Shown: positions 246-17,666 of the stretch, in pieces
Position numbering within the stretch: the stretch's first letter is position 1
Layout of the letters: every line of letters begins with the position of its first letter
Virus record (IMG/VR): IMGVR_UViG_3300036766_001123
Coordinates: 1-27,247 of that record
Reading direction: 5' to 3' (one strand)
Length of the DNA: 27,247 nucleotides
Source: a virus
Made by a program: the position numbers and the translations under genes
The notes under the pieces: model-generated
The model's database searches: none
Told to the model about the DNA's origin: nothing
What the model saw: only the letters and a program-made list of their open reading frames with translations

Positions 246-1130
246 TCATTCTGATGTGACGTTGTGACGGGACTCGCCGTTGGCCTCTTCGCCGGCCTCG
301 GCACGCTCTAGCAGTTTGACCAGTTCTTCGACCGTCCAGACGTGATCCGCAACGCCCGCCGCCATAGCCGGAGTGCGACCCTTGCCGAGCGCCTGATGGA
401 CGCGGCAGAAATTGTAGTGGCAGAAGAAAATCGCCAGCGCGGCCTCGTGGTTCGTCAGCTTCTTGCTGTGTCCGTTCGTCAGTCGAGTGAATCGACGCAG
501 GCCCATGCGGATGCTCAGATTCGCGCGCTCCACGTAGGAAGTGCTGATACGCGACGAGTCGGGATTCCCCAAGACCCGCGCCCGCTTGGTCCCAATGCAT
601 TCCGCCGGGCTGTAGCGCTTCTGGCCTTCTTGTGGTGATCCGTAGAGTTTGACAAGCATCGCGTAATCGACGTTCGCCCCAAACACTTCGTCCATCGCGT
701 CCAGATACATTTCGTGCCCGTCTGTGGTCACCTAGACTCGATCACGTACGCGGCTCGCAAGGTCGAGCAGGAAGCGCTCTGCCGATGCCGCATTGCGCGG
801 CGCGACCAGCCAAGTAGGAATCACCTTCGTGTCGGCGCAGATCGCCGTGAAGGTCCACGTGTCGCCAACGCCAGTTCCAATCTCATGCGCCGCGACCCGC
901 TTCTGCTTCTTCCCCACGAACGACCAAATTTCATCGACTTCAAGAACGCGACACGGCAGGCTCGCCAGCGCTTCGTCCTGAAACGCTTCGAGCACCGGAC
1001 CGAGATCCGCGATCAGTTTCGTAACCGCGCCCTTCGACGAGCCCGTGAGTCGGCACGTGGCGCGGATTCCCACGCCTTCGACCAACGCGGCAACGATTCG
1101 TGCGCGGTGCTTCGTGTCCATTCGATTCAT
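246..1130 (-). pseudogene. IS1-family transposase with in-frame amber stop
   Basis: Two leftward frames, 732-1130 (132 codons) and 246-731 (161 codons), are in the same phase and separated only by a TAG at 732-734. Read together they give a 294-residue protein of usual length for the long single-frame IS1-type DDE transposases. Visible parts are an N-terminal helix-turn-helix (about residues 8-45), the catalytic aspartate in VDEIWSF (D66), TTDGH (D137, four residues after the stop) and STSYVER (E201). From memory of the family, a glutamine (CAG) often sits where the TAG is, so one C-to-T change explains it. This is not the usual IS1 arrangement of two frames joined by frameshifting. The 132-residue product lacks two of the three catalytic residues, so the gene is inactive unless the stop is suppressed. 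I could not identify convincing terminal inverted repeats or a target duplication. Confidence 0.85.
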
Positions 1131-3432: not shown

Positions 3433-5940
3433 CTAACGGCGGTACGCGGTTCGTAGGACACGGACGGTCGCCTCCTTGTCGTCGGACGGAGCCGACAGCT
3501 CGGTGCAGGTCCAGACCAAAGCGTCCATGCGGTTCGGTGACTTCCCGCCCGGGACATAGGTGCACATCTCGTCCTCGAGCTCCTTGAACATCCCGACGTG
3601 GTGCACGCGTCCGCGCTCGTAGAGTGTGGCGATCGGCTCAGCGCGAGGTATCTTCCCGCGCGAGGCGTTGACGAGCGTCACGGGGGCGTTGGCGTCGACG
3701 ACGCGGATGGTCGACTCGACCATGTCGCCGCCGTAGTTCCGCTCCGCAACAATCCGGTCCCCGCCGTGCTTCCGGTGCGCCCGCACCGCTGCGCGGCCCC
3801 ACTCGATCGGCCGGCCGTTGACCGATGCGTCCTCGAGCACGTAGAGCTCGCCGGCCGCGTCGATCCCAGCGACGACGATCCCCGTCTCGTGCGCCGGTCG
3901 GCCGCGGCCGTCCGCCGCCGCGGGGTCCGAGTCGACGTCGGTATCCTTCACGCCCTGCGGGTCAACTCCCGTCACGACGCGCACGAGCGGCGGCACCGCG
4001 CGGCCCTGCGGCCATCGGTACTGCTCGATCAGGTCAAGCGTCCAGAGCGCACCGGGCGTGTCGCCGAGCAGCTCGCCCTCGATCTCCTGCCGACCGAGCC
4101 GCGTGCCGGCCAGCGGGTCGAGCACGTCGCGGACGTACCGCTCGGCGAGGTTCGACCTGTTCTCGAGCGAGCTGCCGCTCACCGTCACGGTCGAGTCCGA
4201 GGCGACGATGCGCTTCAGAATCTCGATCGCCCGCGGCGTCGAGCCGACGACGACGCGCGGGTCCTGACCCTCTCGTAGGCCGAACAGCATGTTGTTCCAC
4301 GCCGCCTCGGGGTACTTCCACGCCGCGAACTCGTCGAGCAGCGCCGTGTCGCCCGAGTAGCCTCGGAACTCCTCGGGGTTCGCCCCGGAGCGGACCAGGC
4401 CGACAACGCCGTTCGGCCAGCGCAGCACGCGGTTGCCGGGCTCCCAGGTGATGTCCGGGTGGTGGCGAAGGAAGCCGCCTGGCCCCTCGATCACGTAGTC
4501 GCGGACGTCGGACGGCGTGCGGCCGGCGACGAGGATCTGCTCGCCGTACCTCTTCCGCCGCGCACGGTAGTCGACCCACTCGGTCTCGGAGCGGGTGTTA
4601 TGCGTCGGTATCATCGCCTCGCCAGCGAGGTACAGAGAGTTGGGCGAATCGACAGTGATACATCGCATCGGCCTCAGCGGAACCGAATCGCACCCGATGA
4701 TCATGCGATGGAAAAGCCGCGAAGCCTGTTGACCGAGGAGGTGAACACGAGACGCCTTCCGTGGCAACGAAAACGGGTTTCCGCGTGTCGGGCGCCAGGT
4801 TACCCGGAATTTCGCGCTGATGTCGCGCCCGCGAAGCGTTGCTCGACTCTCACTGAATGTCGGCCTCTCGCCAAGACTCCTCGCAAGCTGCAAGACACCA
4901 TCCGCGAGAACGCGCAACGTAGAGCAGAACTCGACAGACCCATTTTGCAGAGAACAGTAACCATCCGAATCCATCAATCCACGAAGTAGCTCGGTCCGTT
5001 GGGAACGCGATGACCATAGGTACTCTTCGGGGATGCGCTTATCACCGAGAACAAAGAGCCGATCGCGAAGAATCACCTTGACATTACGAAGCCCAATCGT
5101 TGGAGCCCGTCCGGTATTTCTTCCATAGCGTGCCCACCAGACGCCGACCGCATCTAATCGTCCACATAGCCACGGGATATCACTCTCCCCACAAGTCAGT
5201 GCCGCCGCCGAAGTCGACCCGTCGCCGAGCCAGAAACCCAGAAGCCACGGATCAAGAGGAAGGCTCCTCTCGTCGATTAACAGCGATTCGCAAGTTGGAA
5301 TGGAATGGTTCCTGTCGGCGCGCTTCCCTTGACTCAACGAAGCCGCTATCTCATCAGTCGTGCGTACCGAAGGACCGCAGCCGCGACCGCTCCTCCATGC
5401 AGGCCAACCGATAGGCAAGGGAGCGTCGCGCGCTACCGATCGGTTCCAAGCCTTTCGCGCAGAGTGGTCCCATGTTACCCACTGATGCTCGCCGCCGGCG
5501 ATAAGCGTTGACCCATCGGAGAAAGTCAATCGAAACGCTCGTTCCGGATACTCGTCGAAGAGAGCTGTCACTCGACACGGCATGCCTGATTCATCGAAGA
5601 CCCGACTCCCGATCTTCAGGTCACCTATACGTCGCCAACCATCCGGAGTCGGGATGGGCGTATCAACGCAAAGCAACTTGCCGAACCCTCTGCCCGTCTT
5701 GAGCAGCCAGGTCAGCCACTCGCCGGCCGGCGGGCGCTGCTTTGGGCGCGCCCGGTCACGGACCCACCAGAGCTGAGTCGCCTCGTCGAAGTACCAGCGC
5801 CGCTCGTCAGCGACCAGGTCGTGACGCGGCCTCAAGTAGCCGTCGTTCTCGCGGTACCACTCCGCCTCGGGCACCGGCGGCGGGTCGAGCAGGTCCGCGG
5901 CGCGGGCGAACGGGCTCGTCGATCCGCGCGACGGGATCAC
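3433..5940 (-). CDS. Terminase large subunit with P-loop intein
   Basis: This is the DNA-packaging motor: an ATPase that drives DNA into the prohead and a nuclease that cuts concatemers. The 835-residue precursor has 475 extein residues, a usual terminase length. Walker A GRGFGK ends at K88 and continues with T449 after the intein. Walker B is TALLDEF (D536, E537). The RuvC-like nuclease acids are D660 in VTGVDPQG, E733 in VAERN and D806 in NRMDAL. I start it at GTG 5938-5940, overlapping the previous stop as GTGA. The open frame runs 80 codons further upstream, but those residues are the shadow of the 75-aa gene at 5937-6164. The stop is TAG. Family resemblance is to phage Terminase_6-type proteins. 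Portal and head genes do not follow it, which is unusual. Confidence 0.93.
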   Translation of the reverse strand: MIPSRGSTSPFARAADLLDPPPVPEAEWYRENDGYLRPRHDLVADERRWYFDEATQLWWVRDRARPKQRPPAGEWLTWLLKTGRGFGKLLCVDTPIPTPDGWRRIGDLKIGSRVFDESGMPCRVTALFDEYPERAFRLTFSDGSTLIAGGEHQWVTWDHSARKAWNRSVARDAPLPIGWPAWRSGRGCGPSVRTTDEIAASLSQGKRADRNHSIPTCESLLIDERSLPLDPWLLGFWLGDGSTSAAALTCGESDIPWLCGRLDAVGVWWARYGRNTGRAPTIGLRNVKVILRDRLFVLGDKRIPEEYLWSSRSQRTELLRGLMDSDGYCSLQNGSVEFCSTLRVLADGVLQLARSLGERPTFSESRATLRGRDISAKFRVTWRPTRGNPFSLPRKASRVHLLGQQASRLFHRMIIGCDSVPLRPMRCITVDSPNSLYLAGEAMIPTHNTRSETEWVDYRARRKRYGEQILVAGRTPSDVRDYVIEGPGGFLRHHPDITWEPGNRVLRWPNGVVGLVRSGANPEEFRGYSGDTALLDEFAAWKYPEAAWNNMLFGLREGQDPRVVVGSTPRAIEILKRIVASDSTVTVSGSSLENRSNLAERYVRDVLDPLAGTRLGRQEIEGELLGDTPGALWTLDLIEQYRWPQGRAVPPLVRVVTGVDPQGVKDTDVDSDPAAADGRGRPAHETGIVVAGIDAAGELYVLEDASVNGRPIEWGRAAVRAHRKHGGDRIVAERNYGGDMVESTIRVVDANAPVTLVNASRGKIPRAEPIATLYERGRVHHVGMFKELEDEMCTYVPGGKSPNRMDALVWTCTELSAPSDDKEATVRVLRTAYRR
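4597..5676 (-). mobile_element. LAGLIDADG intein with class 3 features
   Basis: It encodes precursor residues 89-448 (360 aa). The end is IPTHN followed by T449 as +1 residue. Splicing between K88 and T449 restores GRGFGKT, a canonical P-loop. The first intein residue would then be Leu, not Cys or Ser, and the three class 3 marks are present: Trp after the block B histidine (EHQW, W154), Cys in block F (MRCITVDS, C427), and Thr before HN (T446). In class 3 inteins the block F cysteine is the first nucleophile. Two LAGLIDADG motifs (LLGFWLGDGS, D240; LLRGLMDSDG, D324) show a built-in homing endonuclease. GC is lower than in the exteins. Confidence 0.88.
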
Positions 5941-6164
5941 GCGCCGTAGACCCCGTGCCCGACCGGACCCGGAATCGTCCGGTGCCCTCCACCGCAGTCG
6001 ATCGCCTGGAGCTCCCCACCGCTGACGAGTGGTGAGACGATCACCGTCTCGGGGAAGCTGAGCCGCGTCGCCGTCGGCGACGAGCACATCTCGACAGGGC
6101 AGCGAAAAGAAGCGAGCCTCGCGCGCTGCGCCTCGTCGAGCTCGGCGACCGAGCGCCAGATCAC
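5937..6164 (-). CDS. Hypothetical protein, 75 aa
   Basis: Starts at GTG 6162-6164 (GTGA overlap with the upstream gene) and ends in TGA overlapping the terminase GTG, also GTGA. The product begins MIWRSVAELDEAQRARL, is rich in short hydrophobic patches (SFPETVIVSPLVSGG) and has two cysteines. No family recognised. Four-base overlaps on both sides make it the cistron that couples translation into the terminase gene. Confidence 0.65.
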   Translation of the reverse strand: MIWRSVAELDEAQRARLASFRCPVEMCSSPTATRLSFPETVIVSPLVSGGELQAIDCGGGHRTIPGPVGHGVYGA

Positions 6165-6553
6165 AGGAGCCCAGCCGCATTCAGGACGGCGGAGACAAGC
6201 ACCAGCTCGCGCTCGCTCACATCGACGAAGCTCCGCGTCTGGTGATCATAGAGACCGACCCGCCAGTCCCACCGCAGGACGACCGAGTACCTGCCATCGG
6301 CCCCGACGGAGCGGAACGCGCGCGGGACATAGTCGTCGATGATGATCTGGAAGTCGAGACCTTCGCCGCTTAGCGAGCGACACACGCGGTCATCCACCCG
6401 AATCCCCGCCGGGTCGATGTCCGGCAGCGCGGCGAGCGCCGCCCCGTAGTCGTCGAGAATCTTCGAGGCGAGTCGCTGGTACTCCTCGCACGCCGCGGCG
6501 TCTCCGCTCCGCATCCGCTCGCGCAAGATACCGAGTTGCTCAGCGACGCTCAC
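6161..6553 (-). CDS. Hypothetical protein, 130 aa
   Basis: Starts at GTG 6551-6553, overlapping the stop of the 53-aa gene. An open frame extends further upstream, but that part reads as shadow of the neighbouring genes. The N-terminal half is helical and acidic (about residues 1-45), followed by an acidic region (about 55-80, FQIIIDDYVP) and a probable beta-rich part (RYSVVLRWDWRVGLYDH). No family recognised. It sits between the small and large terminase genes. Confidence 0.7.
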   Translation of the reverse strand: MSVAEQLGILRERMRSGDAAACEEYQRLASKILDDYGAALAALPDIDPAGIRVDDRVCRSLSGEGLDFQIIIDDYVPRAFRSVGADGRYSVVLRWDWRVGLYDHQTRSFVDVSERELVLVSAVLNAAGLL

Positions 6554-7930: not shown

Positions 7931-8293
7931 TCACCCGAACGTCTCCCGAAACTCGTCGAGAGGCAGTCTTTCGGAGGCTCGGTTGGGCTCCCAGTGAAAG
8001 ACGGCGAGTCCGAGGCTCTTCGCTTCCTGGACCTCGGCAACGGAGCCGACAGAAGCCTCCCATCCTGGAACGGTCACGACGGCATCGCAGCGGGAGAGGA
8101 TCTCGAGATCTCCGGCGAGGAAAGTTCCGTCCGGAACGGCTCCGTCGAGCAGGGCCGAGTTGAGGTGTGGACAGACGACGGCGAAGCCTCGCTGCCAGAG
8201 GGAGAGGGCGACGGATTCGGCCGAGCGGATATTTTCGACGACGCCACGGATGGTTGGGGCGCGATAGGCGCCGACGACGTAGATAACGATCAC
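7931..8293 (-). CDS. DUF4406-like / nucleoside deoxyribosyltransferase-fold protein
   Basis: A 120-residue protein, GTG start at 8291-8293 overlapping the methyltransferase stop. It opens MIVIYVVGAYRAPTIRG, then ENIRSAE, a conserved HLNSALLDGAVPD region and DLEILSRCDAVVTVPGW with VAEVQEAKSLG. This succession is typical of DUF4406 and related nucleoside 2-deoxyribosyltransferase-fold proteins. Those fold around a nucleotide or nucleoside site, but most phage members have no proven substrate. Its position directly after a DNA methyltransferase suggests a role in nucleotide or DNA modification, which is inference. Confidence 0.8.
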   Translation of the reverse strand: MIVIYVVGAYRAPTIRGVVENIRSAESVALSLWQRGFAVVCPHLNSALLDGAVPDGTFLAGDLEILSRCDAVVTVPGWEASVGSVAEVQEAKSLGLAVFHWEPNRASERLPLDEFRETFG

Positions 8294-9330
8294 GGCTCGG
8301 CGATCTCCGCGACTTCGTCCGCGGATTCGTCCGCGGATTCGTCGAGGAGGTCGAGGTCCTTGTCGGCCTCGAAGAGGTCCTGCTGTTCGATCGAGTCGCG
8401 GAATTCCGTCGCAGCGTGTTCGAGGTTCTTCTTCGCCTGGCGAAAGTACGACGGTTTGAGCTCGATGCCGACCGCTTTGCGTCCGTTGATGATCGCGCCG
8501 TAGACCTCGGAGCCAACGCCCAGGAACGGCGTCAAGACGATCTCGTCGGGGTTACTCCAGAGGATGATAGCTCGTTCGATCACGTCGAGCTGGAGCGGAT
8601 GGACGTGCTTCTCATCCTCTTCGTCGCGGGATTCTCGGAAGGGAAGGACGCGACCGATGCGGATGTCATCCCAGAACGCCGAGGCGTACTGCCGCCAGAT
8701 CCAGTGTGAGTAGCGGTTCTCGATCTGGTTTCCGGTCCAACCACGGAAAGGGAGGAGCTCGGCAGGGATCTGCCGTTCGCCGGCGTAGTTCAGGAGTCCG
8801 ACCGGGTGCTCGATCGGTATTTGGTTCTCGCCCTCACGTCGGAAGACGAGTAGATAATCCGCGGAAGCGACCGAGCAGAGCGACGAATCGGTCACGATCG
8901 TCTTGTGCGCGAGGTTCTTCGCCATCGTCCGGTTACGGACGCCGAGCGGCTCTTTCCAAACATGGTAGCGGGCGATGTAGCGGAAGCCGTGTTGAGCGTG
9001 CAGCCGGATGATGTCTCCCGGGAAGTCGCGGAGGTAGTCCTTGCCGGAGTTCCCGCTCGGCACGTCCATGCAATGAACGGCGGTCATGCGTCCTGGCTTC
9101 GTCAGGCGCCGGATCTCCGCGACGACGAAGGCGTAGTGCTCCATGAACTCGTCGTAGCTGCGGCAGTTCGAGAGGTCCCGCTCAGAGCTGCTGTAAACGT
9201 ACAAGCCTCCGAACGGTGGAGAGTAAATCGAGAGATCGATACTCTCGGCGCGCAGTTTCGTCATCGTTTCGATGCAATCGGAGTTGTAGATAGCAAATCG
9301 GTCGGTAACGACCTGGTCGGATACGGACAT
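8290..9330 (-). CDS. Beta-class DNA methyltransferase (N6-adenine or N4-cytosine)
   Basis: A 346-residue enzyme that transfers a methyl group from S-adenosylmethionine to a base amino group. The catalytic motif IV DLSIYSPPF (S37-F40) comes first and the S-adenosylmethionine-binding motif I PFLGVGSE (268-275) comes late, with GIEL after it. That order defines the beta group. The target base cannot be told from the motif alone. The start at ATG 9328-9330 was chosen for the GAGGAGG ribosome site. An ATG 45 bp upstream lies inside the helicase gene. The tail is acidic, with a DESADESADE duplication from a 12-bp tandem repeat at 8318-8341. It pairs with the helicase upstream and the DUF4406 gene downstream. 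No matching restriction enzyme is seen. Confidence 0.9.
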   Translation of the reverse strand: MSVSDQVVTDRFAIYNSDCIETMTKLRAESIDLSIYSPPFGGLYVYSSSERDLSNCRSYDEFMEHYAFVVAEIRRLTKPGRMTAVHCMDVPSGNSGKDYLRDFPGDIIRLHAQHGFRYIARYHVWKEPLGVRNRTMAKNLAHKTIVTDSSLCSVASADYLLVFRREGENQIPIEHPVGLLNYAGERQIPAELLPFRGWTGNQIENRYSHWIWRQYASAFWDDIRIGRVLPFRESRDEEDEKHVHPLQLDVIERAIILWSNPDEIVLTPFLGVGSEVYGAIINGRKAVGIELKPSYFRQAKKNLEHAATEFRDSIEQQDLFEADKDLDLLDESADESADEVAEIAEP

Positions 9331-9346
9331 CTTCTCCTCCTCTTTC

Positions 9347-10744
9347 TCAGAGCCAGTTTGGAAGTTCTTCTGCATTGACGAACGGATTTATAGAGTCGAG
9401 TTGCAGTGCGTCGTTCATGAATCCGACTAAGGCGGCAAACATCTTGTCCGCGGCTTCTGCCTTACGCTGGAGGTTCCGCAGGACGCCGAGCTCGCCTTCG
9501 GTGGTAATGACATCGACGGTGACGGGCGACTTTTGCCCGAACCGCCAGCAGCGGCGCACGCCTTGGTAATACTGCTCGTAGGAGTGCGACGGGAAGAACG
9601 TCATCCGCGAGCAGTGCTGAAGATTCAATCCGTAAGAGGCGATCTTCGGCTTGGTAACAAGAACGCGGGCATCGCCGCGAGAGAAGGCGAGGAGCTTCTC
9701 CTCTTTCTCGTCGTCGGAGTCCTTGCCGGAGACCTGGATCGATCCGTCGATGCAACGCTCGAGCGCGTCGCCTTCGTCGTTGAGATGGCACCAGGCGATT
9801 CCACTCTCCGCGTCGGAGAGCTTCTCGGCGACGGCTTCGCAGCGCTCGGTCAGGGTCGCTCGCCGTTCCTCGCGCTGCTCGCGGAGTCCGACGGCGGAGC
9901 GGACGAAGAGCTCGCCTTCGAGCGGTCGGCTCGCTCCGATCACCGTCTCGCGCTCGATGAGTGGCGGCAGGACGAAATTGGAATCATCGAATCCAAGGTC
10001 GGACGGCCGGCGCATCGCTCGCGCCCAGGAGCAGACCCATCGCCAGAACGGCGTCTCGGCATGGCGCTTGAAACGCCACTTCGCGCCTTCCTCGAGCCGC
10101 GAGAAGTCGACGCCTCGATGCCTGTAGAGCGTCGGTCGGATCGTATTCTGGTCATTCTTGAAGTACCGCGTCAGCATGTCCATGTGCCCGAGGTTGCCGA
10201 GTGCTTCGGAGCTGGTGCCGAGTTCGATGTAGTCGTTGGGTGCAGCGGTCGCGGTACAGAGTAGGCGATACGGTCGCATTCGAAGGAACTCAGTGACCTC
10301 GGCTCGCCGCTTCCCGTCGAAGGACTTCAGGATCGATGACTCGTCACACACGACGCCTGCGAAGTCGTCCGCGTCGAACAGGTGGAGCCTTTCGTAGTTC
10401 GTCGTTGAGATTTTCGAGGTCGGTTTCCCGTCGGAGCAGCGGACGACTTCGACGCCAAACTTCTCGCCCTCGCGCACGGTTTGGTGCGAGACGGCGAGCG
10501 GCGTGACGATCAGGACGCGACCGTTCGACTTGCGAGCGACGTTCTCAGCCCAGGCGAGCTGCATCGGCGTCTTCCCGAGACCGCAGTCAGCGAAGATCGC
10601 GCCGCGTCCTTTGCGGACGGCCCACTCAACGAGAGACTGCTGAAAATCGAACAGGAAGTCCGCTTGGTAGACCGGATCGAAGCCTCCGTCATCTCCGAGG
10701 TGCGTCTTAGCGGTCAGGAATTCGTCGTACCGTCGATCGTTCAT
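9347..10744 (-). CDS. SNF2/DEAD-like superfamily 2 helicase
   Basis: A 465-residue ATPase. Walker A is ADCGLGKT (G55-T59), motif II VVCDESS (D134, E135), motif III LCTATAAPND (164-171), and a C-terminal motif VI-like GVRRCWRFGQ, as in SNF2-type translocases. The DESS in place of DEAH is common in phage relatives. ATG start at 10742-10744 with AGGAGG 8 nt upstream. The methyltransferase gene follows after 16 bp. Helicase-methyltransferase pairs of this type occur in tailed phages, where the role is often replication or protection of DNA. The exact role here is unknown. Confidence 0.9.
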   Translation of the reverse strand: MNDRRYDEFLTAKTHLGDDGGFDPVYQADFLFDFQQSLVEWAVRKGRGAIFADCGLGKTPMQLAWAENVARKSNGRVLIVTPLAVSHQTVREGEKFGVEVVRCSDGKPTSKISTTNYERLHLFDADDFAGVVCDESSILKSFDGKRRAEVTEFLRMRPYRLLCTATAAPNDYIELGTSSEALGNLGHMDMLTRYFKNDQNTIRPTLYRHRGVDFSRLEEGAKWRFKRHAETPFWRWVCSWARAMRRPSDLGFDDSNFVLPPLIERETVIGASRPLEGELFVRSAVGLREQREERRATLTERCEAVAEKLSDAESGIAWCHLNDEGDALERCIDGSIQVSGKDSDDEKEEKLLAFSRGDARVLVTKPKIASYGLNLQHCSRMTFFPSHSYEQYYQGVRRCWRFGQKSPVTVDVITTEGELGVLRNLQRKAEAADKMFAALVGFMNDALQLDSINPFVNAEELPNWL

Positions 10745-13531: not shown

Positions 13532-13755
13532 CCGATGAACCCCTCGAACGGCATTTCGATGCGTCCGCACTTCGAGCAGGTCGCGTTCGGTCCCGCCGCG
13601 ATCGTGTCGCCTTGAAATCGCATCATCTCGTCAGCTTTCACGAATTGACGGCAGATAGGACAAACCGGAACGAACGTCGCGCCTTCAAACTCACCTTTGC
13701 CGTAGACGACTCGGCGAAAGTTCTCATACGAGTAGTCGCCGAAGTAGAAACTCAC
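13528..13755 (-). CDS. Small zinc-ribbon protein, 75 aa
   Basis: GTG at 13753-13755 overlaps the nuclease stop (GTGA). Its TGA overlaps the primase ATG. Two knuckles are visible, CPIC (C32, C35) and CSKC (C60, C63), enough for one zinc ribbon. The N-terminus is aromatic (FYFGDYSYENF). It is likely a small DNA- or protein-binding accessory of the replication genes, which is inference from position. Confidence 0.7.
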   Translation of the reverse strand: MSFYFGDYSYENFRRVVYGKGEFEGATFVPVCPICRQFVKADEMMRFQGDTIAAGPNATCSKCGRIEMPFEGFIG

Positions 13756-14147
13756 CGCGAGAACCTCGCGACGACGACGAGCGGGCAGCCGGCGAACGCC
13801 TCGACGAAGAGCCCGACGTCGACCTGCGTCGAGGCGAGGTCGAGCACGGTCGAGCGGGCGCGCTCTGCGTCGTCGCAGTGGACGACCACGCCGCCCCGCG
13901 AGGCGATCTCCTGCGCGGTGCGCTTCTGGAGGGGCGTCCCCTCTTCGCCGGGCCGCTTCAGCTCGCACCAGACCGCGCGGCGGCCGGCCGAGGGGTGCGC
14001 CGTCCCGGCGCGCGGTGGCAGGCAGAGGTAGTCGGGGAGCCCCTGGCGCTGGTGCGGCGAGCCGTGGAGCTTCAGGGGCAGCCAGCCGGCGGCCTTCATG
14101 CGGCGGACGAACTCCGCGCCGATCGACGACTCGAGCCGTTGTGTCAA
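13752..14147 (-). CDS. VRR-NUC-type nuclease
   Basis: A 131-residue protein with the PD-(D/E)xK layout of VRR-NUC nucleases: GLPDY (D39), CELKRPG (E62, K64) and LQKRTAQ (Q74), on a short domain with no other parts. These act on branched or flapped DNA in repair and recombination, and in phages they may replace a Holliday-junction resolvase. I start it at TTG 14145-14147, which overlaps TGA of the displaced methyltransferase fragment as TTGA, and an AAGGGGG lies just upstream. Longer starts fall in non-matching sequence. Its original upstream neighbour was the intact methyltransferase gene. Confidence 0.8.
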   Translation of the reverse strand: MTQRLESSIGAEFVRRMKAAGWLPLKLHGSPHQRQGLPDYLCLPPRAGTAHPSAGRRAVWCELKRPGEEGTPLQKRTAQEIASRGGVVVHCDDAERARSTVLDLASTQVDVGLFVEAFAGCPLVVVARFSR

Positions 14148-14227
14148 GAAACCCCCTTCTCTGCGAGTGCATCTTCGAGTTGTTGGATTCTCTGGCCGAT
14201 CCACCGCACGACCGGAACAGCCATGCT
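14144..14227 (-). pseudogene. Displaced original C-terminus of the cytosine methyltransferase
   Basis: A 26-codon frame from ATG 14222-14224 reads MAVPVVRWIGQRIQQLED and on to a TGA overlapping the nuclease start. This is the usual end of C5-cytosine methyltransferases (motif X, following LGNS), yet it is cut off from the enzyme by the homing-endonuclease insertion. The AGC serine codon before the ATG probably belongs to it too, so the break lies close to 14228. It may still be translated and could help start the nuclease gene. Confidence 0.85.
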
Positions 14228-14777
14228 GGACCAGCGAGGCGTGTTATCATATCGCTCATGAAGATCTCTAAATATAGCGACGAAGCCTTCGCGGCGTATG
14301 TTGCCGGCCTGCTCGATGGCGAGGGCAGCATTGAGTGCTATACCAACTCTCAAAGCATTCGCATTCGCATAGCGAACACGAACGCGGCAACGCTTCGTGC
14401 GGTTCATCGGCGTGCCGGTTTTGGAAGAATCGAAGAGTATCGGGGTCGCATCGAACGCGGGTATAAGCGTCTGTTCTGTTTTACGACAAGTTCCGCTAAA
14501 GAAAGTCTGCGACTGCTTACCATCTGCCGACCGTATATGCAAATCAAGGCCAACCAAGCTGACATCGCAATTTGTCGAGTTGCGACAATCGAACGAAAAA
14601 ACGATCTCAGGCGCAAGCGGAACACGACCATCATTGCTGCATTGATGTCTGGCGAGACACAGGCGAATGTCGGTCGTAAGTATGGCCTCACTCAAGCGGC
14701 GGTGTCGAGAATCAAGGTATTGCATCAACAGTCTCGATGCGATGACCTAGCCAGGCAATGATGTTGACGCACATCGA
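14228..14777. mobile_element. Homing-endonuclease element with replacement 3' end
   Basis: About 550 bp inserted within the conserved NSM codons of the methyltransferase gene. It contains a rightward LAGLIDADG gene and, on the other strand, a new methyltransferase ending (14712 to about 14774). The borders are inferred from where similarity between the two copies of the C-terminus begins and are good to perhaps 10 bp. GC is lower than that of the neighbours. Confidence 0.75.
14258..14761 (+). CDS. LAGLIDADG homing endonuclease with C-terminal HTH
   Basis: A 167-residue protein on the opposite strand to all neighbours. One LAGLIDADG motif is visible (VAGLLDGEGS, about residues 15-24), so it would act as a homodimer like single-motif enzymes. 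A basic stretch (about 113-122) is followed by a helix-turn-helix (about 123-156, with ANVGRKYGLTQAAVSRIKVL). The ATG at 14258 has no clear Shine-Dalgarno. Its last 50 bp overlap, antisense, the last 50 bp of the methyltransferase gene. It presumably cuts uninserted methyltransferase genes at the conserved NSM region and spreads by repair. Confidence 0.85.
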   Translation: MKISKYSDEAFAAYVAGLLDGEGSIECYTNSQSIRIRIANTNAATLRAVHRRAGFGRIEEYRGRIERGYKRLFCFTTSSAKESLRLLTICRPYMQIKANQADIAICRVATIERKNDLRRKRNTTIIAALMSGETQANVGRKYGLTQAAVSRIKVLHQQSRCDDLARQ

Positions 14778-16028
14778 GTTCCCGAGCGCCTTGTACTTCG
14801 GCCCGTCGGCCGCAGGCTTGCCGCGGTAGAGAATGTCCAGGTAGTCATCCGGGAATCCCTGAAGTCGAGCGCATTCCGTTGGAGTCAATCGGCGGACGAC
14901 TTGGCGCGAGAGCATCGCTGGCGTCTGCTCGCGGCTTAGCGCGCTCGTGACTTCTTTCGGATCGAGTCCGCGCGCATCGCCACCGGATTGCCAGTTGAAG
15001 GCGACCGCGACCTGTCCGCCCGCGTTCGCGTGCGAGCTGTCGTGCCCCATCGCTCGGAGCGTCGGGGCGAGCTCGTCGGCGTCTGCGCCGCTGTCTTTAC
15101 AGGAGAACGCGACCGTCGGCGGATGCTCATGCAGCGTGTGGCTCTCTCGCCCCGGAGTAATGTCCCCGCGAGGGTCGGGACTCGTCACCTGGCGCTCATC
15201 GAAGACGAGCGGCGTGCCGCGCCCGGTTCCGTCTTCGCTCGCATCGAAGCCGTCCGCGCGGAGGGAGTGAGCAATGAACGTCTCCGATCCTCCAGCCAAG
15301 ACGCCACCGCTTTTCTTGAGCGTTCCGGCCGCTTCTGATTCGCGGTATTCATGCAGGCCCGTCTCGATGAACGCAGCGACTAGCCCGCCGTCTAATTCGG
15401 CGTCGGTCCCGAGTCCGCCGCCGCCTCGAGTGCGAGCCGCAAGGCTCGGGGCAATTCCTTCCCGCGTTTCGCGGCTCGGCGGAGAATCCCGGCGCAGGCA
15501 CGAGGGCTCAAATAGAACCGCTGCGGCACGTCGCCAGTCTCCAAGATGTCCGACAACGAACACGCGACGGCGCCGCTGTGGAACTCCGAAGTATTGAGCG
15601 TCCAGAACTCGGTAGCTCCACCCATACCCGAGTTGCCCCAGCCCTCCGAGGAAGGCTCCAAACGCCCGTCCTCCATCGCTCGACAGAACACCAGGCACGT
15701 TCTCCCAGCAGATCCAGCGGGGGCGATAGCGGTCCACCACGCCAAGAAAGACGAGGGCGAGGTTGCCGCGCGGATCTGCCAGTCCGCCTCGGAGTCCGGC
15801 GACGGAGAACGACTGGCACGGAGTTCCGCCGACGAGAAGATCGATCCTTGCGTCGGGCCAGGTTTGGAAGGCATTCATGTCTCCGAGGTTTGGAACGTCG
15901 GGATAGTGGTGCGCTAGGACCGCGTTCGGAAAGCGCTCGATCTCCGAGAAGAACGCCGCACGCCAGCCGAGCGGCGACCAGGCGACCGAAGGCGCTTCGA
16001 TGCCAGAGCAGACCGAGGCGAAGATCAC
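14712..16028 (-). CDS. C5-cytosine DNA methyltransferase with swapped C-terminus
   Basis: A 438-residue enzyme that methylates carbon 5 of cytosine. Motif I is FASVCSGIEAP, the catalytic loop GGTPCQSFS (C71), motif VI WENVPG (E109), motif VIII QRRRRVFVVG, motif IX TPTECARLQGFPDD, and motif X LGNSMCVNIIAWLGHRI. The region between (about 180-370) is the variable target-recognition part. The start is GTG 16026-16028, GTGA with the helicase stop. About 106 in-frame codons further upstream are shadow of that gene. The last 21 residues differ in sequence from the displaced fragment at 14144-14227 but carry the same V, W, G, R, I pattern, so the enzyme probably still works. Confidence 0.92.
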   Translation of the reverse strand: MIFASVCSGIEAPSVAWSPLGWRAAFFSEIERFPNAVLAHHYPDVPNLGDMNAFQTWPDARIDLLVGGTPCQSFSVAGLRGGLADPRGNLALVFLGVVDRYRPRWICWENVPGVLSSDGGRAFGAFLGGLGQLGYGWSYRVLDAQYFGVPQRRRRVFVVGHLGDWRRAAAVLFEPSCLRRDSPPSRETREGIAPSLAARTRGGGGLGTDAELDGGLVAAFIETGLHEYRESEAAGTLKKSGGVLAGGSETFIAHSLRADGFDASEDGTGRGTPLVFDERQVTSPDPRGDITPGRESHTLHEHPPTVAFSCKDSGADADELAPTLRAMGHDSSHANAGGQVAVAFNWQSGGDARGLDPKEVTSALSREQTPAMLSRQVVRRLTPTECARLQGFPDDYLDILYRGKPAADGPKYKALGNSMCVNIIAWLGHRIETVDAIP

Positions 16029-17666
16029 AGGCTCAGCACCGGGATCGCCGCGCCGACCGCGTCGGCGACGTAGAGCTTCTCGGAGGCGCGCGTCGCGCCG
16101 ACGTAGAACGTCCGGAAGACGGCCTCGCGCCCGGCCCAGCCCGGCGTCGCGAGCTGCCGCTGCGCCTGGGGCGAGAGTTCCGGAAAAAGTAGAACGCGGC
16201 TTGCCTCTCCTCCCTTGACCGAATGAACCGTGCCCATCAAAACCGTTGGCTGCCGCTCGAGCGCGTCCTCCCCGCTCCGCCGGATAGCGCGGAGCGCGAG
16301 CTCGAGCGAGGCGGGCGCGGCGTCGGAGAGGTTCGCGAGGCACCACTCTAGGTCGCCGTCCTCGAGCGCGGCGAGCGCGCCAGGGGTCAGCCAGCGGACG
16401 GCCTCGCGGGCCACGTCGGCGGACGGTGCGCCGTCCTCGAGCCGGCCGATCGCGGCCTTCCCGCCGCGTCGGACGCCGTCCTCGGGGCTCGCTGCGGCGA
16501 CCGAGCGGACCGCGCCGGCGACCGCCTTGAGCTGCTGCGCGCTCCAGCCGGCCGCGCCGTCCTCGCCGGCGAGGAAGCGCAGCGCGCCGGCCGCGGCGCG
16601 CGCCTTATCCCCGATCGGGTTGTAGCGGTGGGTATACGGGTTGCACCACGGGATACCGGCTTTCGCGAGCACGGCCTTGGTCGGCCCGAGCAAGTAGTCG
16701 CACGTCGCGAGGACCATGAGTTGCTCGCCCTCGGCCTCGGCCTCCTCGATTAGGTCGATGATCCGCTCCGGCCGGCGCCACGTCAGGTCGTGCGCGGCGC
16801 GCACCTCGCCGAGGACCGGCTCGCTCTCGGGGTCCTCCGGGTCGACCCGCCGCGGGTGGTAGACGACGTCCTCGCGCCAGCACCCGCCGGCGCGGGCAAT
16901 GCGAAGCGCGATCTCGTGGACAGCGGCCGGCACGCGGTAGGACTGCGAGAGGACGAGAAAAAGATCTCCAGCGAGGATCTCCGGCGAAGCCGCTCTCCAG
17001 GAGTAGAGAGCTTGGACCGGATCTCCCACGAGAACCGCGCGTTCCGCTTGGGAGGTCCAGTGCTCGATCACCGCGAGCTCGAGCCGCGAGAGATCCTGCG
17101 CTTCGTCGACGAAGATCACCGATGGCCGGCCCGGAGCGTAGGGAAATTCGAGCCCGCGTTCGATCAGGTCGGTGAAATCGCACACCGCGCCCTCTCGCTT
17201 GAAAGCGGTCCACGCCGTATCGAACGCAATCTCTTGAGTCGGCCACGAGCTGCGCGGCCGCATCCGGGCGCGGAGGAGCTCGCAGCGGAGCGCAAGCGCA
17301 TCGCCGCGCGTCTCGCCGCCTTCCCATGCGCTGCCCGCGTCCTCCTCGAATTGCACGCCAGTCGGCGTCATTCGCCACTCGGGGTACTCCGTATTCCACG
17401 CCTCGACCTCGGCTCGGCCGACGATCTTCGGCCGGTCGAGCATTCTGAAACAGTGAGCGTGGAGCGTGGCGATTTGCGTTTTCGCGAGCCCGGAGTCGCG
17501 CCCCGCGGCTTCTCGCGCCGCGGCCTTGGTCAGCGAGGACACGAGGACGCCTTCCGGTCCGTACTTCGCGACCGCGTGCTGGCACTGCCTAGCGAGCCAC
17601 GTTGTCTTGCCACAATCAACCCGGCGGACCGACGACTTTGAAGATTCTCTCTTCTCCTGTCGTCAT
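16025..17666 (-). pseudogene. UvrD-like helicase frameshifted in the P-loop
   Basis: Superfamily 1 helicase. From ATG 17664-17666 (AAGGAGG 10 nt upstream) the frame reads MTTGEERIFKVVGPPG and hits TGA (17616-17618). Four bases later another frame continues CGKTTWLARQ without a break for 529 codons. Removing four bases restores GPPGCGKTT and a 545-residue protein. The continuing part has VIFVDEAQD (motif II), LVGDPVQALYSWR (III), SYRVP (IV), TVHSVKGGEA (V) and FYVGATRASE (VI). No in-frame start exists before GTG 17542, which lies after the P-loop. A single +1 shift would leave an extra residue in the loop. As read, no active ATPase can be made. A sequencing error is possible. Confidence 0.82.

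Follow-up and report, generated by a model that had tools for sequence, protein, structure and literature searches.

We sought to explain why a viral C5-cytosine DNA methyltransferase gene is found with two C-terminal ends, one in frame with the gene and the other stranded beyond a LAGLIDADG endonuclease gene. The window, by which we mean the whole stretch of DNA analysed, is an entire IMG/VR virus contig of 27,247 bases, assembled as a single metagenomic contig. The locus coordinates given in an earlier, sequence-only reading held when the sequence and its open reading frames were read again. A UvrD-like helicase gene (16025-17542, minus strand) lies upstream of the methyltransferase gene (14712-16028, minus strand; PF00145, E 1.9e-48). 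The methyltransferase body, residues 1-419 up to GNSM (14772-16028, minus strand), was delimited by PF00145 and by identity to near relatives, and it is followed by the present 3' end, CVNIIAWLGHRIETVDAIP and a stop (14712-14771, minus strand), which its sequence and its relatives mark as probably a replacement. In context the protein ends with GNSM joined directly to CVNIIAWLGHRIETVDAIP, so that the C-terminus reads GNSMCVNIIAWLGHRIETVDAIP, or PKYKALGNSMCVNIIAWLGHRIETVDAIP when more of it is given; the ending quoted in the earlier reading is present but four residues short, DAIP having been left out. The single-motif LAGLIDADG gene (14258-14761, plus strand; 167 amino acids), recognised by its motif, fold and profile matches, runs antisense to the methyltransferase gene and has 50 bp in common with it (14712-14761). 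A short leader (14228-14257, read from the sequence), in which a scan for a sigma-70-like site on the plus strand found none, separates the endonuclease start from an orphan tail, SMAVPVVRWIGQRIQQLEDALAEKGVS and a stop (14144-14227, minus strand), identified as the probable original 3' end by a tail HMM, phrog_23296 and the relatives. As had been reported, the TGA stop of this tail overlaps the TTG start of the next gene in the sequence TTGA (14144-14147, minus strand), a stop-start junction that was presumably kept from the uninserted arrangement. The next gene (13752-14147, minus strand) is nuclease-like (phrog_93 endonuclease, E 2.4e-10), VRR-NUC-like by eye and without a match in a Pfam search, and is followed on the same strand by a primase-like gene.

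The likeness between the two tails exceeds chance, because a profile of the family's tails, scanned across all six frames, matches the window significantly at just two places. We collected 80 methyltransferase relatives and built the tail HMM from the tails of 63 relatives, leaving the window out. This HMM matched the present end with E 1.6e-21 and the orphan with E 1.1e-8, the third-best match standing at E 0.015, and the match to the orphan starts exactly at the S of GNSM. PHROG 23296, a methyltransferase family, likewise matches both tails, at overlapping profile positions (30-59 and 40-59). Each tail reaches a best BLOSUM score of 68 against the family tails, while in 2,000 shuffles the orphan never exceeded 36 and the new tail never exceeded 30. 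The five residues common to both are V, W, G, R and I, precisely those listed before. When the flanks are joined at GNSM, the result is an in-frame gene that scores 87 bits, compared with 77 for the present gene. Homologous C-termini thus lie on both sides of the endonuclease ORF, the first of them in frame with the host gene, which is a feature of the fungal mitochondrial mORF gene hybrids discussed below.

Comparison with the relatives indicates which of the two tails is native. Relatives without the insert end in GNSMAVPVMRWIGxRI with almost no exceptions among the 80 examined, and this, together with the HMM match of the orphan, bears out the proposal that the orphan is the old ending. Uninserted relatives that end as at 14712 and lack homology to 14144-14227 did not turn up. 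The log-likelihood of the orphan (-22.9) falls between the 5th and 25th percentile of 67 relatives, whereas that of the present tail (-36.4) is an outlier below their minimum of -28.4. New and old tails are 28% identical in amino acids, lower than all 2,211 pairs of relatives' tails, and 43% identical in nucleotides, lower than about 99.9% of such pairs. Median identity to near relatives falls from 0.76 over residues 391-419 to 0.37 over residues 420-438. The divergence of the present ending from the orphan was thus correctly described, and it extends to the near clade. The present tail is best matched by tails of the CVNVMAWIGHRI type from distant methyltransferases, as the suggestion of a different homologue had implied. 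Such C-tails are common in distant methyltransferases and rare in the near clade, where 2 of 128 genes have them (L099 and L358). L099 is a near-clade methyltransferase with a natural C-tail and 80% identity in the N-domain; its stored frame lacks the N-terminus, and C-tail genes were therefore ranked by percent identity and not by bit score. Because loci L083-L142 had been retrieved with the C-tail pattern, the Spearman values obtained are biased and were not relied on. GC content is 0.48 in the new tail against 0.65 in the methyltransferase body and falls to about 0.50-0.55 over the insert together with the new tail, a difference that is supportive and no proof of tail ownership, because the orphan is also low in GC (0.56). 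Taken from the sequence, these comparisons support the orphan as the lineage's original 3' end. As in the mORF hybrids, the native C-terminus fits close relatives and the inserted one appears foreign, with the caveat of L099 and L358; since these near-clade C-tail genes exist, the present tail, unusual as it seems for its body, might have been obtained by descent. The foreign part may also begin upstream of GNSM. Its edge cannot be placed within the block 391-419, because these residues are conserved throughout and because flanking sequence is co-converted during homing (PMC2988022).

The gene has the features expected of a C5-methyltransferase, namely the PF00145 match, the PCQ and ENV motifs, and motif X (GNS) with the terminal helix. 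Its present frame is complete and the conserved tail residues are kept: the new tail retains G428 and R430, which are invariant in the family, as well as V421, W426 and I431, which are nearly so, and it differs at A420. In the predicted structure the new tail forms the terminal helix (residues 421-435) with a pLDDT of about 90. The methyltransferase model is poor overall (mean pLDDT 60) because residues 179-378 form a variable region. Judged by sequence and model, the present tail should function, and the hybrid enzyme would be active. The phage has two DNA methyltransferases of different classes, an N6/N4-type at 8290-9375 and the C5-type at 14712-16028, both on the minus strand.

The gene between the tails encodes the motif YVAGLLDGEG. 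Both the LAGLIDADG helix and the catalytic acid are present, with Y14, A16, G17, D20 and G21 invariant and E22 nearly so among 35 relatives. In phmmer searches native I-CreI sequences from the PDB matched with E 0.003-0.01 and an engineered variant with 2e-6; phrog_5046 matched with E 7e-13, and PF14528 (LAGLIDADG_3) scored 17.9 bits, just below its cut-off of 22.5. An AlphaFold model computed from 35 sequences has a pLDDT of 83, above 90 in the core, and Foldseek matches it to I-CreI (E 7e-7, probability 1.00) and also to phage LAGLIDADG proteins. The model thus supports the earlier identification, pointing to an intact, full-length LAGLIDADG protein that folds like I-CreI. A weak resemblance to helix-turn-helix regulators was seen for residues 117-154, a region of low model confidence, and the C-terminal part from about residue 117 may be a helix-turn-helix. 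Single-sequence searches of phages, plasmids and bacterial genomes turned up nothing closely related to the endonuclease. A family-alignment search returned 64 viral and 70 genome loci, none of them at a methyltransferase end. One apparent relative, L001, was spurious, with stops in frame. Elsewhere in the window, the terminase large subunit gene (3433-6180, minus strand) has an intein-like insertion with a LAGLIDADG domain (PF14528, Hom_end), and this phage therefore has two LAGLIDADG elements.

We propose that the locus probably holds a compact homing element that carries its own functional methyltransferase 3' end and is inserted at the GNSM codons. This reading is supported because homologous tails flank the endonuclease and because the orphan fits the clade of the body and the present tail does not. 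The element would be about 545 bp long and would lie within motif X of the phage C5-methyltransferase gene, at the codons for GNSM. It would consist of the methyltransferase 3' end of another homologue together with the antisense I-CreI-like LAGLIDADG gene, the last 50 bp of which would double as the replacement 3' end. The uninserted form would then have been the methyltransferase body with AVPVVRWIGQRI at the gene end. The endonuclease would cut uninserted alleles at the conserved GNSM-AVPV region, and repair from a carrier would copy the element in, with the upstream body and the downstream old end serving as homology arms. The copied-in end would complete the frame with motif X, making an intron or intein unnecessary and presumably leaving the enzyme active, and its differing DNA should render the carrier allele resistant to cutting. 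The old end would be left without its gene, with the TTGA junction to the next gene kept. At the joined target site, at best 6 of 11 pairs are pseudo-palindromic, which is not above shuffles. Of the homing element with its own functional end put forward in the sequence-only reading, the tail mismatch and the intact endonuclease stand as observations; mobility, cleavage and methyltransferase activity we infer from the sequence.

The main competing explanation, which we regard as unlikely, is that the gene at 14712-16028 is natively C-tailed, or was replaced as a whole together with the endonuclease, and that the orphan, 27 codons long, is the remaining end of another, mostly deleted methyltransferase. 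Natural C-tails do occur in the near clade, in L099 (80% identity over the N-domain) and L358, and in some phages a C-tail and an A-tail methyltransferase occur in tandem (L087 and L104). On this account, however, it would be mere chance that the deletion stopped at the S of GNSM, just where the similarity of the intact gene drops. Moreover, no more than 2 of 128 near-clade genes have C-tails, and in the tandem pair of L104 the C-tail copy shares only some 50% N-domain identity with the window. The two tails might also come from an assembly chimera, in which a stretch from one phage, with a C-tail methyltransferase and the endonuclease, was fused to a stretch from a second phage, with a methyltransferase end and the genes downstream of it. 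The window is indeed a single IMG/VR contig, but body and orphan fit the same clade, the TTGA overlap is unbroken and inspection by eye shows no long repeat common to both junctions that could have led to misjoining, and we consider such an artefact very improbable.

A local origin of the second tail would be a 3' end duplicated around the endonuclease insertion, one copy of which then diverged under the overlap with the endonuclease. Any target-duplicating element would leave two tails, but recent local duplication is rejected because the tails are too different: among 67 relatives their identity (28% amino acid, 43% nucleotide) lies below every amino acid pair and about 99.9% of nucleotide pairs, and the new tail matches another existing type, CVNVMAWIGHRI. 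This origin thus appears still less probable than a chimera. Homing endonucleases usually travel in introns or inteins, and the terminase gene of this phage has an intein-like LAGLIDADG insertion, so that a self-splicing intron or intein might be thought to interrupt the methyltransferase gene, with splicing still expressing the old tail. The features of a group I intron or intein were not found around the endonuclease, a search of Rfam for introns stayed empty up to E 5, the endonuclease lies antisense, and the methyltransferase end that the insert supplies is in frame, has the family's conserved residues and closes with a stop of its own. We give splicing the lowest probability of these alternatives, hardly any at all. 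A split gene with a homing endonuclease of the Aeh1 nrdA type was also considered and seems not to apply, as the first part is complete on its own and the new tail has all the invariant tail columns.

The proposed homing element has its closest counterpart in fungal mitochondria. In mORF gene hybrids, which include atp6, atp9, cox2 and nad3 of Glomus sp. and of which atp6 of Allomyces macrogynus was the first case, an endonuclease ORF (LAGLIDADG, or GIY-YIG in atp9) lies near the 3' end and brings a divergent C-terminus of foreign origin with which the host gene is completed, the native one being found downstream (PMC3630166). Our locus is alike in having an endonuclease ORF at the host gene's 3' end and two C-termini. 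In contrast to the fungal hybrids, it concerns a phage and a DNA methyltransferase and is known from sequence alone, its endonuclease gene runs antisense and shares sequence with the replacement end in an insert of about 545 bp, and a stop-start overlap still links its orphan to the next gene. Free-standing endonucleases split phage genes in Aeh1 nrdA/mobE, T4 gene 60/mobA and phage 25 gene 43 (PMC2988022). There, as here, a homing gene sits inside a functionally critical phage gene without splicing, but those genes give two reassembling polypeptides, whereas here there would be one polypeptide with a new end. The endonuclease itself resembles the I-CreI / I-MsoI single-motif class in sequence match and predicted fold, and is unlike that class in not being intron-borne and in its possible, weakly indicated C-terminal helix-turn-helix.

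The sequence-only reading knew of no fungal-type end swap in phage methyltransferases. Homing elements have in fact been described there, in actinophage DNA methylases: the ShiLan element, a hidden out-of-frame HNH gene on the same strand (PMC11855218), and a lone LAGLIDADG insertion (PMC9957025). As far as the consulted portions of these papers go, in both an endonuclease sits within a phage DNA methylase and neither an intron nor an intein was found, and in ShiLan the reading frames also overlap such that the host gene remains open; unlike the present case, both are internal, with no replacement end or orphaned old end in those portions. A literature search that covered chiefly open-access papers and few subscription papers found no phage gene with a replaced 3' end. 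On balance we favour, somewhat cautiously, a phage element free of intron and intein, whose replacement end overlaps the antisense endonuclease, restores the enzyme and hides the cut site; to our knowledge, such an end-swapping element would be the first described in a phage or prokaryote. If this is correct, the 3'-end-swap strategy of fungal mitochondria occurs in phages too, conserved coding sequence can be entered without killing the gene by a further route that needs neither intron nor intein, and such elements move gene pieces between distant homologues. The proposal predicts that the endonuclease cuts GNSM-AVPV alleles and spares its own.

The arrangement is rare among the loci surveyed. 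Methyltransferase loci comprised 78 near relatives, 53 with the C-tail pattern and 119 more with a tail, partly overlapping and about 250 in all, and at none of these did a LAGLIDADG gene of the same family lie beside a tail. Nor did any other convincing tail duplication appear alongside the 152 related endonuclease frames, the window included. This flank comparison used real gene ends, an all-frame version having been swamped by arginine-rich, GC-biased frames. One higher-scoring candidate, L177, proved to be a tandem pair of endonuclease genes; at L177:3950-4674, 3' of a C5-methyltransferase, there are two tandem LAGLIDADG-type ORFs, and in the second of them the N-terminal motif is apparently missing. 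Two tail motifs less than 3 kb apart occurred elsewhere only at L028, L087 and L104. These are apparent tandem C5-methyltransferases with 1.6-2.5 kb between them, a C-tail followed by an A-tail in L087 and L104 and two A-tails in L028. A search with the helicase found no whole-locus relatives, and the downstream nuclease had no relatives within methyltransferase loci. Near the contig end, the ORF at 246-731 (minus strand) looks by eye like the end of an IS1-type transposase; a Pfam search gave no match. In other loci, C5-methyltransferase genes contain a nested LAGLIDADG gene of the same broad family, which lies close to the ENV motif and is read in an alternative frame; such genes occur in the Gordonia phages Bibwit, Sedona, Hans and Inspectinfecti (L145, L146, L148 and L150), in Mycobacterium phage DotProduct (L147) and in a Methylibium MAG (L264). 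The methyltransferase ORF runs unbroken through the nested gene in L147, L150 and L264. To judge from the portion of the ShiLan report consulted, these loci parallel its hidden HNH gene (PMC11855218), with LAGLIDADG taking the place of HNH.
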